From contig JAKAKD010000089.1 in NCBI GenBank assembly GCA_021824635.1, forward strand, positions 1 through 34,315: a DNA stretch of 34,315 nt, read 5' to 3'. The position numbers were made by a program, and so were the translations under genes. Shown here piece after piece: positions 26,762-33,488 of this stretch (position 1 is its first letter; each line of letters starts with the position of its first letter). Source of the stretch: Bacteroidota bacterium (GTDB lineage: Bacteria > Bacteroidota > Ignavibacteria > Ignavibacteriales > Melioribacteraceae). The notes under the pieces were generated by a model that did no database searches, was not told the DNA's origin, and saw nothing but the letters and a program-made list of their open reading frames with translations.

Positions 26762-26910
26762 GCATTCAGTTACCAGCCGAAGTAACAAGAAAACATTAGT
26801 TTGTAATTAAAAATTAAATGCCGCGAGGGTGCGGTGGTTTACTTGTTTCTATATTGTATTACCAGCCAACAGCCGAAAAAAATATTTCTTAATTACATAA
26901 GAGGGTGCTT
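26762..26910 (+). promoter_or_regulatory. Long 5' leader of the first T9SS unit
   Basis: The leader of about 140 bases contains ACCAGCCGA near 26772, a small CCGC/GCGG hairpin (26821-26834), and a 3' block (26858-26910) shared with the second unit: ATTACCAGCC, ACAGCCGAAAAAA, then ATATTTCTTAATTACATAAG and AGGGT. The AAGAGGGT end is the ribosome binding site. The conserved part is longer than a Shine-Dalgarno needs, so it may bind a regulator. Confidence 0.5.
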
Positions 26911-29181
26911 ATGAAAAACAAACTTACGATTAGTGCTATTATTATTTTATTTTTTTCACAAATAATATTAGCACAGACACCAGCAAATTATGCGCTTGGT
27001 GTTTCAATTCTTCCGTCATTTGATTGGACGCTTACTCCTGGAACTGGTCCTAATTATCATTTATATGTAGATGATAATGCTGATTTCAGTTCTCCAGTGA
27101 TTGCACCGTCTATTGCAGTAACGGGTGCAACTACATATACTTTTACTTATTCAAGTACTGCTAGCGTGGTTCTTCAAAACGGTACATCGCTTGCCCCTAA
27201 AAAATATTATTGGAAAGTAACTGATGACGGCAACGCAGGTGCAATCTTAGTATCGAGAGAATTCAATACGGTGAACGAATCAGTACCTATGATCAGTCCG
27301 GTAATTCCAAGTGTTACATCTGCTTATGTTGGCTGGTCACCTGTTCCTTATTCTTCCGGTTTGAAATATGACCTAACTTACTCTCTTAATTCTGATATGA
27401 GTGCACCTGTTGGAACAATAAGCAATCTTACAACTCCTAATTATACTCTAACCGGTTTAACAAATAGTACAACTTACTATGTGCAAGTTCGCACAAAAAA
27501 CAGTACAGGTTCCGTTATAATCTCATATTCTACTGTATCAACATTTACAACCCTTGGTCCGCCAACTCCTATTAGATCATACCCAATAGATGCAGCGACT
27601 GTTTACGCTTCTAAACCAACATTCTTTTGGTATATAGAAGGGAATGAACCTGGATTAGATTATCAAATTAGATATAGGCTTTCTTCTGGTGCTTACGGTG
27701 TGCCTCAAGTATTAACAACATCAAATAAATTATACAAAACACTTACAACTAATTTAACTGCTGGTGAAACTTATGTTTGGCAAGTTAGATCATTTGCTGG
27801 TGCTACATATTCAAATTGGTCAACTGCAGGTGATTCAACATTTGTAATGTTCTCTAGTGTTGCAACAACACCCCCTGTTCCAATTCCATCTTGGCCGGAC
27901 GGCAGCCCAACGCCAACAATTTATACTAATCCTCCTGTGTTGTATTATTACATTGATGTTTATGCAACAGGCTTAGAATTCAGAGCTCAATATTCAACTG
28001 CCAATACATTGGTGGGAGGTGCAGGAACTGCTTTTAGTGTCGCACCTGTAACATTAGGTTGGACAACTGATCTATTTTCAGCAGTAGCTGTATCTTTAAT
28101 ACCAGGTACACAATATTATTGGCATGTTCAATCAAGATTAGCTGGTCCTCCGAATACAGAGTCTGCATGGTCTTCAACTGCAACATTTATTGTTGCAACC
28201 ACAGCAAGCGGTGCTGCAACCACACCAATACCTTCAACTCCAGTTGGGGGACAAATATTAGACAGCCCGCTTTCCGGAGTAACTTTGTTTTGGGCTGCAC
28301 CAGCAACAGAATCTCTGGATTATCAAGTAAGAATTGCGCAAAGTTCGAGTGTTGACGGAAGCGGAATGTTAAATCATCCTCTGGCAGTTTCAACCACCGC
28401 ATCTGGCGGATGGCCAGTTACTGATCCGACCAAATCTATTTTAGTAAGTGCAATACCATACTCATTAACGGCGGGAGCTACATATTACTGGCAGGTAAGA
28501 TCGAGATTAACGGCAACTCCTGCAATTTTCTCTTCTTGGTCAATGGTAGCCAGTTTTTCAACCGCCGCCGGATCTTCATCCGTAGTACCATTAGTTATAA
28601 GTCCTAACTATGGACAGCCGATAAATAATACAAGTGCAGTATTAACCTGGAAGATTCCGGTACCGACCGATTCTCATTTGAAATACGATTTACAATATTC
28701 AAAAAATTCAGATTTCAGTAGTGCACAAACGAAAGCAAATTTAAATGAACCAGTTGCACAAGTAACCGGATTAGATCAGAACTCCACATATTATTGGAGA
28801 GTATTATCAAAGACTGATAACGGATCGACATCGAGCTATTCAACAACTGGATCATTTAAGACAAGCGGTGCTACATCGGTAGAAGAACAAGAAACAATAC
28901 CAACAGCATATGAGTTATCACAGAATTATCCAAATCCATTCAATCCAACAACAAGGATAAATTTTGCAATACCTCAAAATTCTTTTGTTACAATAAAAGT
29001 ATATGATATGTTGGGTAGGGAAGTAAAAACCTTAATCAATCAACAAATGGTATCGGGGAATCATTCAATTGATTGGAACGCTGATAATAACTTAGGAATC
29101 AAAGTAGCCACTGGAATGTATATTTACAGAATTACAGCAGGAAACTTTGTTTCAACTAAGAAGATGGTATTAATTAAATAA
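26911..29181 (+). CDS. Large secreted fibronectin-III-repeat protein with T9SS sorting domain (unit 1)
   Basis: The 756 residues have a Sec signal peptide (KNKLTISAIIILFFSQIILA, then Q). About six fibronectin-III-like modules follow, with recurring TYYWQVRS / TYYVQVRTKN strands; the last starts at VVPLVISPNYGQPINN near residue 560. From about residue 665 comes the C-terminal sorting domain: YELSQNYPNPFNPTTRINFA, VTIKVYDMLGREVKTL, GMYIYRITAGNF and a lysine-ended tail (KKMVLIK). Such C-termini direct cargo through T9SS to the cell surface. No T9SS machinery is in the window. I use the ATG at 26911; a GTG two codons upstream lies within the Shine-Dalgarno. No catalytic domain is seen, so an adhesive or structural role is likely. 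Confidence 0.88.
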   Translation: MKNKLTISAIIILFFSQIILAQTPANYALGVSILPSFDWTLTPGTGPNYHLYVDDNADFSSPVIAPSIAVTGATTYTFTYSSTASVVLQNGTSLAPKKYYWKVTDDGNAGAILVSREFNTVNESVPMISPVIPSVTSAYVGWSPVPYSSGLKYDLTYSLNSDMSAPVGTISNLTTPNYTLTGLTNSTTYYVQVRTKNSTGSVIISYSTVSTFTTLGPPTPIRSYPIDAATVYASKPTFFWYIEGNEPGLDYQIRYRLSSGAYGVPQVLTTSNKLYKTLTTNLTAGETYVWQVRSFAGATYSNWSTAGDSTFVMFSSVATTPPVPIPSWPDGSPTPTIYTNPPVLYYYIDVYATGLEFRAQYSTANTLVGGAGTAFSVAPVTLGWTTDLFSAVAVSLIPGTQYYWHVQSRLAGPPNTESAWSSTATFIVATTASGAATTPIPSTPVGGQILDSPLSGVTLFWAAPATESLDYQVRIAQSSSVDGSGMLNHPLAVSTTASGGWPVTDPTKSILVSAIPYSLTAGATYYWQVRSRLTATPAIFSSWSMVASFSTAAGSSSVVPLVISPNYGQPINNTSAVLTWKIPVPTDSHLKYDLQYSKNSDFSSAQTKANLNEPVAQVTGLDQNSTYYWRVLSKTDNGSTSSYSTTGSFKTSGATSVEEQETIPTAYELSQNYPNPFNPTTRINFAIPQNSFVTIKVYDMLGREVKTLINQQMVSGNHSIDWNADNNLGIKVATGMYIYRITAGNFVSTKKMVLIK

Positions 29182-29211: not shown

Positions 29212-29304
29212 ATGAAAAATATCAGCGCTCGAATCATATTTTTTCTTGTAATAGCTGCGGTAGGTCTTGCTCTATACGCATGTCATCAAGCATATTTTGT
29301 TTAG
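29212..29304 (+). CDS. 30-residue lipoprotein-like peptide, copy 1
   Basis: ATG at 29212 is preceded by AGAGGAAACTAAA. The peptide is basic, then hydrophobic, ending GLALYACHQAYFV. LYAC fits a lipobox, so signal peptidase II would leave a lipidated CHQAYFV. A second copy follows the next T9SS gene (33333-33425) with the last 13 residues identical. Six of those 13 codons differ, all silently, which shows selection on protein. It lies between the T9SS gene and a hairpin terminator, so it is cotranscribed with the cargo. I recognise no family; the layout recalls colicin lysis lipoproteins and entericidins in size only. Confidence 0.75.
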   Translation: MKNISARIIFFLVIAAVGLALYACHQAYFV

Positions 29305-29336
29305 ATCAGATTAAAAAAAATAGATTCAATATTAAA

Positions 29337-29371
29337 AAGAAGGTCACCAATCGGTGGCCTTCTTGCGTTTT
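29337..29371 (+). terminator. Intrinsic terminator of T9SS unit 1
   Basis: AAGAAGGTCACC and GGTGGCCTTCTT form a 12-bp stem (one G-T pair) with loop AATC, followed by GCGTTTT. The AAGGTCACC core recurs in the terminator of unit 2. Confidence 0.8.
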
Positions 29372-29516
29372 AAACCTGCCTTATAAAGAAATCCATTTCA
29401 TCATTTTTTAGAAGCAAAATCATTTTATGCCGTAAGTAAATCTGCGATTTTGACCAATTTATAGCTTATTCAGAAGGAAATAGAGAAAAATAATTTAGAA
29501 AAAAGACAAAATATCC
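29372..29516. other. Spacer between the two T9SS units
   Basis: An AT-rich stretch of about 145 bases with no gene, hairpin or repeat that I can support. Confidence 0.4.
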
Positions 29517-29544
29517 TTGACAATTAATTTTAAAAAGATATATT
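29517..29544 (+). promoter_or_regulatory. Sigma-70-like promoter of the second T9SS unit
   Basis: TTGACA at 29517-29522 and TATATT at 29539-29544 are 16 bases apart, a near-consensus arrangement. Transcription would start around 29551, giving a leader of about 105 bases. Confidence 0.55.
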
Positions 29545-29590
29545 GCCCTATAAAATTGATTGAATAAGATACAGATTGTCTTGTTTCATC

Positions 29591-29657
29591 ATTACCAGCC
29601 GACAGCCGAAAAAAACAGCCGAAAGAAAATATTTCTTAATTACATAAGAGGGTATTT
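29591..29657 (+). promoter_or_regulatory. Conserved leader block of the second T9SS unit
   Basis: It repeats the block at 26858-26910: ATTACCAGCC, ACAGCCGAAAAAA, an extra ACAGCCGAAAG, then ATATTTCTTAATTACATAAG and AGGGT before the ATG. The AGCCGAA word is present twice here and once in the unit 1 block. It may be a binding site in DNA or RNA. Confidence 0.5.
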
Positions 29658-32600
29658 ATGAAAAACAAATTAACTGTTTTCGCAATTATAACGTTAATAA
29701 GTTTCAACGTTATCCTTGCACAAGTTCCCCCCGCTGCACCTGTAGCTTCAGCGGCGACTTCGATAACTGCAACATCTTTTACTGCAAACTGGGGTTCAGG
29801 CGGAGGAGCGGCAGAAACTGCTTACTATCTTGATGTATCAACAAGCAGTTCTTTCGCTTCATTTGTTCCCGGTTATAATAATTTAAATGTAGGTCTTGTT
29901 ACTTCCTACTCTGTTACCGGATTAACTGCCGGTCCAACTTACTACTATAGAGTAAGAGGATATAACGGATCGGGGAGTGGACCCAATTCAAGTACAATTG
30001 ATGTTGCTGGTATTTCAGTTGCGTCTGCTGCTACAGCAATTACAAATTCAGGTTTTACTGCTAATTGGAATGCGGTAGCTGGTGCTTCTTCATATACGTT
30101 AACAGTTGTTGGAGATGCTGGGAGTCCTTATACATTAATAGTTGGGACTTCTTATGCAGTCACAGGTTTAACGGCAGGTACATTATATTCATATACTGTT
30201 CAAGCAGTAAGTGCAAGTTTATCAACAAGCACTGCTTCAAATTCAATTAGTGTGTGGACTATTCCTGCCGATCCAGTTTCTTCCGCAGCATCTAATGTTG
30301 CCGGTACAAGTTTCTCGGCAAATTGGAGTGCTTCAACAGGTGCAACAGGATATTATTTAGATGTTGCAACTGATGTGGGATTTTCTTCCTTTGTTTCAGG
30401 TTATAATAGTTTAGCTCTGGGTAATGTTACAACTTATTCAGTAACGGGATTATCTTCTAACACACAATATTGGTATAGAGTAAGAGCATTCAATACCGGC
30501 GGAACAAGTGGAAATTCCGGAACACAGACTACTACTACCGGTCCGTTAGCAAATGCCGCTACATTAATAACTCAAACATCGTTTCAAGCAAATTGGGCAG
30601 TAGCAGCAGCAAATAATTATTTAGAAGTTTCTACTTCACCAACTTTTGCAGGTAACATCGGAGCTCCATACGATGGATTAACAGATGAAGGAGTGGTTTC
30701 AACTTTTACTGTGAGTGGTTTAACAGCCGGAACAATTTATTATTATAGAGTCAGCACTGCACCGGCAACACCGCCATATTCTAATACAATAACCGTTGTT
30801 ACCGTACCACCTGCGCCTGTTTCATCCGCTGCATCAAATGTTGCTGGTACAAGTTTCTCGGCAAATTGGTCTGCGGTTTCAAGTGCAACAGGATATTATT
30901 TGGATGTTGCAACAGATGCCGGGTTTACATCATTTGTTACCGGATTTAATAATTTGGATGTTGGAAACGTAACCACTTATTCCATTACCGGACTAATAAT
31001 TAATACTCCATATTATTATAGAGTACGTGCATATAATGCAAGCGGCACAAGCGGAAATTCTTCAACTCAAAATCCAACAACCGGTCCTTCAGTGCCTCTA
31101 ATTGGTGGTTCCAGTCCGGCAAATTATGCAGTCGGGGTTACAATCCAACCTTCTTTCTCATGGTCAGGTGGAACGAGTTACGACTTCCAAATTGATGACA
31201 ACAGTGATTTTAGTTCACCTATTGTATTTTTAAATTCAAATCCAAGTACATCATATAGTTTTGCACCATATGTAAATACATCAACTATTTTGCTTGCAAA
31301 CGGAACAACATATTACTGGAGAATTAGAAAGGTCGGTCCACCTAACAGCGATTGGACACCGACACAAGAATTTACAACAGTAAATGCTGCAACACCATAT
31401 ATGAATCCTGTTCTAACCGGTGTTACCACTGCATATATTTCATGGCATCCCGTTCCGTATTCTTCCGGTTTATATTATGATTTGTTGTGGTCAACTAATG
31501 CAAACATGTCTGGTTACACAACTGTAGCCCGGTTAGATACAACTTCATATACATTAACAAATTTGGTACAGGGTACTACATATTATGTTCAGGTTAGAGC
31601 TAAGAATACAGCGGGCACAGTTATAATAACTTATTCAACAGTAACAACTCCGTTTACTGCTACTGCGCCGCCGATTCCATATAGATCTTATCCAATAGAT
31701 GGTGCAATAAGTTACGCTTTAAAGCCGACATTCTTTTGGTTTATAAAAGGGAATGAACCATTTTTAGATTATCAAATACGTTACAGACTTTCTACAGATC
31801 CGTATCCGTTGACTCCTCAAGTAACAACGACATCCAATAAATTATACAAAACTATTTCTACGGATTTAGTCGCCGGCTCAACATATTATTGGCAGGTTAG
31901 ATCATTCATTGGCGGAGTTTATTCTAACTGGTCAACTGTAGGAGATTCATCGTTTGTAATGTATACAAGCTTAGCCAGTTCTCCTGTTGTTCCATACACA
32001 TCATGGCCGAACGGTGGTGCAACTGTATATGTAAATCCTCCGGTATTATATTATTACATTGATGTTTATGCAACCGGATTAGAATTCCAAGTTCAATATT
32101 CTACAAGTTCGTCAGTAGGCGGGGGTGGTGATTTTACTGTTTCTCCTGTTACATCTTCTTGGACTACCGATTTATTTATGGCATTGAATGCATCATTAAT
32201 TCCGAATCAACCTTATTATTGGCATGTGAGATCAAGACTAGCGGCAACACCGGCATCAATATCTGCATGGTCTTCTTCAGCAAATTTTATTGTTGCATCA
32301 ACTGCAAGCGGAGCGGCAACAACGCCAATTCCTTCTACTCCGGTCGGTGGACAAATTTTAGACAGTCCGCTTTCCGGAATAACTTTGTACTGGTCAGCAT
32401 ATTCTACACAAACACTCGATTATGAAGTACGACTTGCTCAAAGTTCAAGTGTAGATATTAATGGTATGTTGAATCATCCGTTGGCAACTTCGAGCGGATA
32501 TGTAACTACTGATCCGACTAAATCTATTTTAGTAAGTTCAATATCATACACTTTGACAGCTGGAGCTACATATTACTGGCAGGTAAGATCGAGATTGTCA

Positions 32601-33269
32601 ACAAACAATGCGATTTTCTCTCCATGGTCAATGGTAGCTAGTTTCTCAACCGCCGCCGGATCTTCATCTGTAGTACCATTAGTTATCAGTCCAAACTATG
32701 GACAGCCGATAAATAATACAAGTGCAGTATTAACTTGGAAGATTCCGGTACCAACCGAATCTCATTTGAAATATGATCTGCAATATTCCAAGAATGCTGA
32801 TTTCAGTAATGCGCAGACAAAAACAAATATTGATGAACCTGTAATGCAAGTTGCCGGGTTAGATCAAAACTCTATTTATTATTGGAGAGTTTTATCTAAG
32901 AACGATAATGGATCAATATCGAGTTATTCAGCAACCGGAACATTTAAAACAAGCGGAGCGACATCCGTAGAAGGACAAGAAACAATACCAACAGCATTTG
33001 AGTTATCGCAAAACTATCCGAATCCATTCAATCCAACAACTAGAATCACTTATGCACTTCCTCAGAATGCATACGTAACCATTAAGGTTTACGATATGTT
33101 AGGCAGGGAAGTAAAAACATTAGTAAGTAGCGAGATGTTGGCCGGAAGTCATTCAGTTGAGTGGAGAGGAGAGGACAATGTAGGTGGAAAAGTAGCAAGC
33201 GGTGCATACATATATAGAATAACCGCCGGCAATTTTATCTCTACTAAGAAGATGTTATTACTAAAGTAA
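29658..33269 (+). CDS. Giant secreted fibronectin-III-repeat protein with T9SS sorting domain (unit 2)
   Basis: The 1203 residues start with a signal peptide (KNKLTVFAIITLISFNVILA, then Q). Five fibronectin-III modules lie at about 24-118, 118-200, 203-293, 294-382 and 383-474, with the repeated pattern SSAASNVAGTSFSANWSA and TGYYLDVATD. From about residue 480 it is collinear with the unit 1 protein (SPANYAVGVTIQPSFSWS onward), including LVISPNYGQPINNTSAVLTW. It ends with the same T9SS domain: SQNYPNPFNPTTRITYALPQ, VYDMLGREVKTLV, STKKMLLLK. So it is unit 1 plus an N-terminal repeat array. Modules 3 and 5 are nearly identical, a sign of recent duplication. It is probably a surface or extracellular adhesin-like protein. 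Confidence 0.88.
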   Translation: MKNKLTVFAIITLISFNVILAQVPPAAPVASAATSITATSFTANWGSGGGAAETAYYLDVSTSSSFASFVPGYNNLNVGLVTSYSVTGLTAGPTYYYRVRGYNGSGSGPNSSTIDVAGISVASAATAITNSGFTANWNAVAGASSYTLTVVGDAGSPYTLIVGTSYAVTGLTAGTLYSYTVQAVSASLSTSTASNSISVWTIPADPVSSAASNVAGTSFSANWSASTGATGYYLDVATDVGFSSFVSGYNSLALGNVTTYSVTGLSSNTQYWYRVRAFNTGGTSGNSGTQTTTTGPLANAATLITQTSFQANWAVAAANNYLEVSTSPTFAGNIGAPYDGLTDEGVVSTFTVSGLTAGTIYYYRVSTAPATPPYSNTITVVTVPPAPVSSAASNVAGTSFSANWSAVSSATGYYLDVATDAGFTSFVTGFNNLDVGNVTTYSITGLIINTPYYYRVRAYNASGTSGNSSTQNPTTGPSVPLIGGSSPANYAVGVTIQPSFSWSGGTSYDFQIDDNSDFSSPIVFLNSNPSTSYSFAPYVNTSTILLANGTTYYWRIRKVGPPNSDWTPTQEFTTVNAATPYMNPVLTGVTTAYISWHPVPYSSGLYYDLLWSTNANMSGYTTVARLDTTSYTLTNLVQGTTYYVQVRAKNTAGTVIITYSTVTTPFTATAPPIPYRSYPIDGAISYALKPTFFWFIKGNEPFLDYQIRYRLSTDPYPLTPQVTTTSNKLYKTISTDLVAGSTYYWQVRSFIGGVYSNWSTVGDSSFVMYTSLASSPVVPYTSWPNGGATVYVNPPVLYYYIDVYATGLEFQVQYSTSSSVGGGGDFTVSPVTSSWTTDLFMALNASLIPNQPYYWHVRSRLAATPASISAWSSSANFIVASTASGAATTPIPSTPVGGQILDSPLSGITLYWSAYSTQTLDYEVRLAQSSSVDINGMLNHPLATSSGYVTTDPTKSILVSSISYTLTAGATYYWQVRSRLSTNNAIFSPWSMVASFSTAAGSSSVVPLVISPNYGQPINNTSAVLTWKIPVPTESHLKYDLQYSKNADFSNAQTKTNIDEPVMQVAGLDQNSIYYWRVLSKNDNGSISSYSATGTFKTSGATSVEGQETIPTAFELSQNYPNPFNPTTRITYALPQNAYVTIKVYDMLGREVKTLVSSEMLAGSHSVEWRGEDNVGGKVASGAYIYRITAGNFISTKKMLLLK

Positions 33270-33332
33270 GGTAAAAACAATTCAACTATAAGAGAGATAA
33301 CTCAAATAATTAAAAAGAAAAGAGGAAGAGAA

Positions 33333-33425
33333 ATGAAAAAGATAAGCGCATCACTCTTTTTGTTGTTCGTGCTGGCGGTAATAGGTCTAGCCCTTTACGC
33401 ATGTCACCAAGCGTATTTTGTATAG
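33333..33425 (+). CDS. 30-residue lipoprotein-like peptide, copy 2
   Basis: ATG at 33333 follows AAGAGGAAGAGAA, a good Shine-Dalgarno. The peptide begins MKKISASLFLLFVLAVI and ends GLALYACHQAYFV, identical to copy 1 over the last 13 residues, while the hydrophobic core has drifted conservatively. Both copies are exactly 30 residues and end in TAG. The position (about 60 bases after the T9SS gene, before a GGTCACC hairpin) is the same. A lipidated heptapeptide or a very small inner-membrane peptide are the two readings. The function is unknown. Confidence 0.78.
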   Translation: MKKISASLFLLFVLAVIGLALYACHQAYFV

Positions 33426-33459
33426 ACCTGAATAAAAAAAATAGAGCAATTAATATGAG

Positions 33460-33488
33460 AAGGTCACCAATCTTGGTGACCTTTTTTT
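33460..33488 (+). terminator. Intrinsic terminator of T9SS unit 2
   Basis: AAGGTCACCAA and TTGGTGACCTT form a perfect inverted repeat (central TC, so the innermost pairs probably stay open as the loop), followed by a run of T. It is the counterpart of the unit 1 terminator. Confidence 0.9.

Follow-up and report, generated by a model that had tools for sequence, protein, structure and literature searches.

A putative two-gene module of a membrane micropeptide and giant fn3/Ig-repeat T9SS cargo in Melioribacteraceae

Introduction

LptM is a small lipoprotein that assists an outer-membrane machine, and lipoprotein signals in general consist of a charged n-region and an apolar stretch, followed by a cysteine with a small residue at -1 and a leucine-like residue at -3. 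Other described systems place a partner beside an exported cargo: in colicins the lysis lipoprotein is the last gene behind the cargo, as set out in the accessible part of PMC9517006, and titles cited in PMC5727409 name a bacteriocin release protein whose signal peptide is stable and functions in release. T9SS cargo of type B, in the excerpts at hand of PMC12618676 and PMC9143113, has a specific PorP/SprF-like partner that is often the product of the adjacent gene and is needed for secretion or anchoring, and HP0135 of Helicobacter appears in the available text of PMC11768039 as a genus-restricted, ultra-small lipoprotein with a conserved C-terminal end.

In the window, by which we mean the whole 34,315-nt stretch of DNA analysed here (contig JAKAKD010000089.1 of the Melioribacteraceae assembly GCA_021824635.1), two giant genes with T9SS tails are each followed by an ORF of 30 codons that had been proposed from the sequence alone to encode a conserved lipoprotein-like peptide (the original prediction). 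By analogy, the nearest precedents for the logic of such a locus would be type B T9SS cargo with its adjacent shuttle and colicins with their lysis lipoprotein, to the extent that the available texts describe them. To the colicin lysis lipoproteins and bacteriocin release proteins (PF02402) the likeness, within what those texts cover, would lie in a small lipoprotein, a last gene and an exported cargo, and in a signal peptide that is itself functional (titles cited in PMC5727409); the micropeptide differs in that the PF02402 threshold was not reached (best E 0.09, in 4 of 17 members), in having only 6-7 residues from the cysteine on, and in a cargo that is a T9SS surface protein. Type B cargo resembles this locus, as far as the excerpts go, in having a cargo-specific partner that is often encoded beside it, but the PorP/SprF-like partner is an outer-membrane beta-barrel whereas the micropeptide, with 30 residues and one apolar stretch, falls outside that group, and the tails of both cargos in the window are hits to TIGR04183, the type A model (cargo 1 at 46.5 bits against a cut-off of 23).

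Results and discussion

Two 30-codon ORFs behind paralogous cargo genes

Both short ORFs are present as originally described, each behind a large fn3 ORF with a T9SS tail, and the features of this part of the window are as follows.

26905..29181, + strand: cargo 1, giant fn3/Ig-repeat protein (listed at 758 aa) with a type A T9SS sorting tail
29212..29304, + strand: micropeptide 1, 30 codons, 30 nt 3' of cargo 1, with a ribosome-binding-like motif
29338..29364, + strand: hairpin 1, terminator-like, 3' of micropeptide 1 (looser rule only, absent from the consensus scan)
29658..33269, + strand: cargo 2, 1203 aa, paralogous to cargo 1, likewise with a T9SS tail and fn3 domains
33333..33425, + strand: micropeptide 2, 30 codons, 63 nt 3' of cargo 2
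33458..33488, + strand: hairpin 2, terminator-like with a T-run, 3' of micropeptide 2 (looser rule only, absent from the consensus scan)

Micropeptide 1 translates to MKNISARIIFFLVIAAVGLALYACHQAYFV and micropeptide 2 to MKKISASLFLLFVLAVIGLALYACHQAYFV. The two hairpins were called by a looser rule of our own, and a stricter consensus terminator scan, which follows other rules, lists neither. Because it gives the better signal peptide fit, we prefer the ATG at 26911, two codons 3' of the listed GTG (26905; V-L-M-K-N-K), as the likelier start of cargo 1; a V-L-M start also recurs in relatives.

The last 13 residues of the two micropeptides are identical (GLALYACHQAYFV), and exactly six codon pairs differ between them (CTT/CTA, GCT/GCC, CTA/CTT, CAT/CAC, GCA/GCG and GTT/GTA), all synonymously, as had been reported; six random substitutions in this stretch were all silent in 21 of 300,000 trials. 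This had been read as a strong sign of selection on the peptide, a reading that stands as far as coding-level purifying selection is concerned, but the two-copy pattern alone is not extreme for a duplicated pair. Cargo 1 and cargo 2 share 495 of 719 aligned residues (492/743 when counted over alignment columns) at dN 0.23 and dS 1.20, and 63 of their 569 13-codon windows are fully conserved too, 18 of these 63 carrying at least six codon changes. Since equally conserved windows occur in the paralogous cargo pair, the two-copy pattern is too weak by itself; the micropeptide pair shows ordinary coding-level purifying selection after duplication, and the case must therefore rest on relatives.

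Distribution and coding selection of the family

A profile started from the two window sequences gave strong matches in relatives, and the alignment was then enlarged. Searching the 164 genomes of the order at E ≤ 0.001 recovered the family in 47 of them, 46 in Melioribacteraceae; the 47th genome (G056) belongs to another family and has a weak match (E 6.3e-4), which follows a large T9SS-like-ended ORF at a distance of about 90 nt. Within Melioribacteraceae 33 of 79 genomes had no match, three of the window's own genus among them, and some of these cases are due to broken contigs. Draws of further genomes, in which up to 20 first-look candidates were scored per genome, gave at least 18 genomes with a match out of 395 from the phylum (earlier profile), all in this family among the matches listed, and at least 31 out of 391 from the class, the matches listed comprising 30 from this family and G056. 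When genomes were scanned with a degenerate pattern, 19 of the 22 stretches found lay in Ignavibacteria, Melioribacter or Stygiobacter records, including Stygiobacter electus 09-Me. The other three (Marinirhabdus, Bacteroidales and Ezakiella), like a single stretch on a viral contig, have no short ORF of this form and were set aside as chance.

Across the family the three codon positions vary by 1.10, 0.64 and 1.56 bits, the third being the most variable, and dN is below dS in 382 of the 393 pairs with a usable dS (median ratio 0.44), so that the homologues with synonymous-biased substitution on which the prediction depended are found outside the window. The existence of a lineage-restricted micropeptide family under coding selection is, on these comparisons, well supported. 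The same data bear on whether the ORF might be a by-product of nucleotide-level conservation, for instance of a terminator leader, an idea prompted by the position of both window copies between cargo stop and hairpin; the codon-position pattern and the ribosome-binding-like motifs speak against it, as do the conservation of hydrophobicity and cysteine across strongly diverged DNA and the lack of any Rfam match anywhere in the window, and we regard it as scarcely credible.

Copy number ranges from one to six per positive genome, the copies being kept beside the same cargo type across the family, and both the window's own genome and Melioribacter roseus (G018) have two. Tandem arrays repeat the cargo and the peptide genes alike. 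The largest array seen, in G019 (L091 and L092; G019:C4:278452-296827), packs six micropeptides into about 18 kb, behind T9SS cargos arranged in tandem.

The family is previously undescribed. None of 17 members matched Pfam, NCBIfam or PHROGs at E ≤ 0.001 (best weak E 0.013, 0.024 and 0.0077), in agreement with the original statement that no described family with this ending was known to its author, and a literature search found no paper on the micropeptide among the matches listed, with coverage thin for subscription journals and absence thus unproven. LptM (NF047847) is comparable as a small lipoprotein but gave only sub-threshold matches in 9 of 17 members (best E 0.052), micropeptide 1 reaching 10.3 bits against a cut-off of 27.7 over residues 1-24 only, which places the family outside that model. 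HP0135 is likewise, in the available part of its source, a lineage-restricted ultra-small lipoprotein with a conserved C-terminal end, but the mature part given there has 28 residues, and one of the 17 members matched it weakly (E 0.45).

Peptide anatomy and the cysteine site

We described the anatomy from a main set of 50 distinct sequences from 35 genomes, with the cysteine-less third unit of G034 set aside and G033 outside the count. Family members mostly have 29-30 residues, that is 23 residues, a cysteine and then 5-6 residues with an aromatic pair. The cysteine is present in all 50 (position 24 in 47, position 25 in three), and the part from the cysteine on has 6 residues in 18 sequences and 7 in 32. 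The most conserved block sits directly before the cysteine, with A at -1 in 49/50, L at -3 in 46/50, L at -5 in 47/50 and no polar residue at -14 to -1 in any sequence, while beyond it +2 is H or Q in 45/50, +5 is Y or F in 46/50 and +6 is F or L in 50/50. Two copies, the third units of G034 and G033, have no cysteine. In G033 (L134, G033:C109) the membrane peptides behind three cargos are longer, at 42-52 residues, and carry a hydrophilic N-terminal extension; one of the three is the cysteine-less copy.

The proposal that LYAC is a lipobox is plausible, as the cysteine, the A at -1 and the L at -3 agree with the general rule for lipoprotein sites and signal peptidase II (LspA, PF01252) was found in 5/5 genomes searched; it is qualified by the two cysteine-less copies and by a site that differs at -2 and -1 from most local lipoboxes examined. 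Position -2 of the micropeptide is Y, I, V, L or M in 50/50 whereas local lipoboxes, a small control picked by pattern, have S, P, H, N or T in 18/21 (S or P in 14/21), and -1 is A in 49/50 whereas the same small control has S, N or G in 19/21.

These properties also suit an uncleaved single-pass micro membrane protein, in which the helix would stay in the inner membrane, lipidated or not, with a structural cysteine, and might act there, perhaps on the T9SS motor or on passage of the giant cargo through Sec. The stretch of about 20 apolar residues with its best-conserved block directly before the cysteine, the -2 and -1 residues unlike most of the 21 local lipoprotein signals, the two cysteine-less copies and the three N-extended copies of G033 would all fit such a protein. 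It accounts less well for a cysteine that is invariant in 50/50 sequences, always 6-7 residues from the end and preceded by L-x-A, a motif that fits the general lipobox rule well, and we see it as a real if minority possibility.

Comparison with a GH9 lipoprotein encoded nearby separates the conservation of the micropeptide from that of a neighbouring lipoprotein signal. Over the 12 residues before the cysteine, between-genome identity is 63% for the micropeptide vs 21% for the GH9 lipoprotein, both measured on one set of 18 genomes (from an initial 20, two were left out, for want of a cysteine and for an unclear start). The micropeptide is the more conserved in 150 of 153 pairs; when positions -16 to -5 alone are compared, this holds for 134 of 153. 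Because this identity is far above that of the GH9 signal and the site differs from the 21 local lipoboxes, the hydrophobic half is probably conserved for more than export, and the membrane segment itself is probably functional. In Gram-positives the signal peptides of lipoproteins serve as sources of pheromones, and so unusual a conservation of the signal part might also point to a pheromone, a hydrophobic fragment or the short tail being released to report cargo expression. Typical pheromones, however, diversify between genera whereas the residues of this peptide diversify little, and inspection by eye of the loci listed found neither a receptor nor a regulator that keeps a constant position next to it, which leaves a pheromone improbable.

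Linkage to one lineage of T9SS cargo

Among 70 distinct copies scoring at least 18 bits (one of them the part behind the stop of a broken copy in G015), 67 lie within 200 nt behind the end of a T9SS-tail ORF on the same strand. Two of the three others are cut by contig ends and one, in G030, is without upstream cargo. This adjacency was not selected for, since most loci were fetched by peptide and not by cargo. In the reverse direction, 53 of 60 ORFs with the T9SS-tail pattern have the peptide directly behind them across 40 stretches, counting the window but not L094, a share that is biased upward because these stretches were fetched for the peptide. The lone micropeptide of G030 (L098:8474-8557) is followed after 125 nt by a different T9SS cargo.

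That such a peptide follows each T9SS cargo gene is true of both cargos in the window but not genome-wide, as the window's own genome has 40 T9SS tails (E ≤ 0.001) and two peptides. Melioribacter roseus has 90 at the same threshold; tails are very many also in G053 (132) and G016 (91). No short ORF with a lipobox was found within 450 nt behind any of 35 other T9SS-tail genes (15 from the window's own genome, 20 from M. roseus). That the peptide always lies behind cargo, a point the original prediction had put up for checking, holds for the 67 of 70 copies, for one cargo lineage and not for T9SS cargo in general. In a tree of sorting tails, which has few columns and whose bootstrap had not settled, a single branch of 55 rows (support 95/89) contains 51 of the 52 linked cargos together with three unlinked ones and one other, and G013 has a linked cargo with a tail of another lineage. 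Of the 53 linked cargos, 45 were scanned for domains, giving fn3 in 43, a Por tail in 44 and an Ig/fn3-like model in 45. As judged from tails and domains, the peptide is a mark of one lineage of fn3/Ig-rich giant T9SS cargo. Peptide identity and sorting-tail identity are correlated (Mantel r 0.58, with 0 of 2000 permutations as high), a correlation that would also arise from shared inheritance alone, and the cargo-peptide linkage as a whole could reflect shared inheritance only.

Some cargos are without an intact peptide, namely in G002, G016, G030 and G015, the last with its stop-broken copy. Loci were also sought through a neighbouring fatty-acid-hydroxylase-like gene in 37 genomes of the family without an earlier hit and 11 genomes from other families of the order, and this marker was found in 19 of the 48; in G012, G038 and G100 the 13-15 kb examined at the locus hold neither cargo nor peptide, several other loci reach contig ends, and the G033 locus reached in this way has the longer peptides. 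In the sister family f3 (G057, G068 and G070) the same neighbourhood has T9SS-like cargos and no peptide, so such cargo can do without it. In-frame stops break two copies, a TAG in G015 (L040) and a TGA in G096 (L094).

Before the peptide, a ribosome-binding-like motif (loose pattern) occurs in 47/56 cases, a hairpin with a T-rich tail follows within 140 nt in 43/56, and a hairpin separates cargo from peptide in 5 of 38 gaps longer than 25 nt. Production of the peptide together with the cargo is suggested by the order of the two genes, by the hairpin after the peptide and by the duplication of both genes together. Taken with the linkage, micropeptide and giant fn3/Ig-repeat cargo would almost certainly form a two-gene module in Melioribacteraceae.

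A small lipoprotein as the last gene behind an exported cargo is also the layout of a lysis or release peptide, one that perturbs the envelope to release the cargo as colicin lysis lipoproteins do (PMC9517006, accessible part), and the bacteriocin release protein named in titles cited by PMC5727409 has a stable signal peptide that functions in release. The lysis option of the original prediction is weakly hinted at by Lysis_col matches in 4 of 17 members, but these are below threshold and, with a best E of 0.09, far from significant; moreover the cargo has its own exporter, and genomes across the family retain between one and six copies beside one type of cargo. We rate release by lysis as very unlikely. 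PorU is present in 5/5 genomes tested. A phmmer search of cargo 1 against PDB chains gave 0 matches, and an AlphaFold2 model of cargo 1 made with no alignment (mean pLDDT 32.5) was set aside.

Proposed role

A charged N-terminal end and an apolar stretch of about 20 residues predict membrane insertion with the cysteine outside. By this anatomy, insertion of the micropeptide is very probable; it would proceed through Sec/YidC and leave the cysteine and the short aromatic tail in the periplasm. The cysteine is a candidate for lipidation by Lgt, which we think fairly likely, and possibly for cleavage by LspA; that cleavage frees a lipopeptide of 6-7 residues is a proposal we find evenly poised. 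Held in the membrane, the peptide would act on cargo translated from the mRNA that also encodes it and assist in exporting that cargo or retaining it at the surface, with contact made between the membrane segment and C-x-x-x-aromatic-aromatic end on one side and the cargo or the T9SS on the other. Such a direct role in export or display is something we infer, with belief and doubt about equal. Our best reading overall, to which we would give an even chance, is a dedicated membrane micropeptide or micro-lipoprotein that partners the cargo in export or display. A stronger version, in which export or surface retention of one giant adhesin-like cargo depends on a T9SS micro-lipoprotein dedicated to it and the lipid plus C-x-x-x-aromatic-aromatic end forms a minimal membrane-cargo adaptor, is tentative and, we think, unlikely as it stands.

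If the partner reading is true, T9SS would have cargo-specific helpers smaller than gene finders usually accept, and the lineage of type A-tail cargo would have a dedicated partner; we know of no partner for type A-tail T9SS cargo. Micropeptides of this kind, confined to one lineage and encoded behind large surface genes, can easily escape notice. The role is directly testable thanks to the rigid anatomy, the up to six copies per genome and the natural variants that lack the cysteine or carry an N-terminal extension; Melioribacter roseus P3M-2 and Stygiobacter electus 09-Me are two named strains that lend themselves to it. The observation behind the original prediction was a good one, a real selected family linked to T9SS cargo; its statistical argument was weaker and its title too general.

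Gene neighbourhood and cargo leaders

A recurrent neighbourhood, shared by many members (L033-L052, L091-L110), holds a helicase-like gene (by eye), phosphofructokinase, an SNF symporter, cargo and peptide, an enolase-superfamily gene, the fatty-acid hydroxylase, the GH9 lipoprotein, a KaiC-like ATPase and a TPR protein. The TPR protein, 952 aa in L092, has a probable C-terminal outer-membrane barrel; we considered it as a surface-lipoprotein exporter and rejected this, as TPR_Slam matches were below the cut-off in the three proteins scanned. In the window, both cargo genes have a common leader directly before the start codon, TTACCAGCC(A/G)ACAGCCG (26859-26906 and 29592-29653), and a small GC-rich hairpin at 26819-26836 (consensus terminator scan) precedes the leader of cargo 1. 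Further on, the two leaders have an identical 27-mer, at 26880 and 29627, and they are possibly a common regulatory element.
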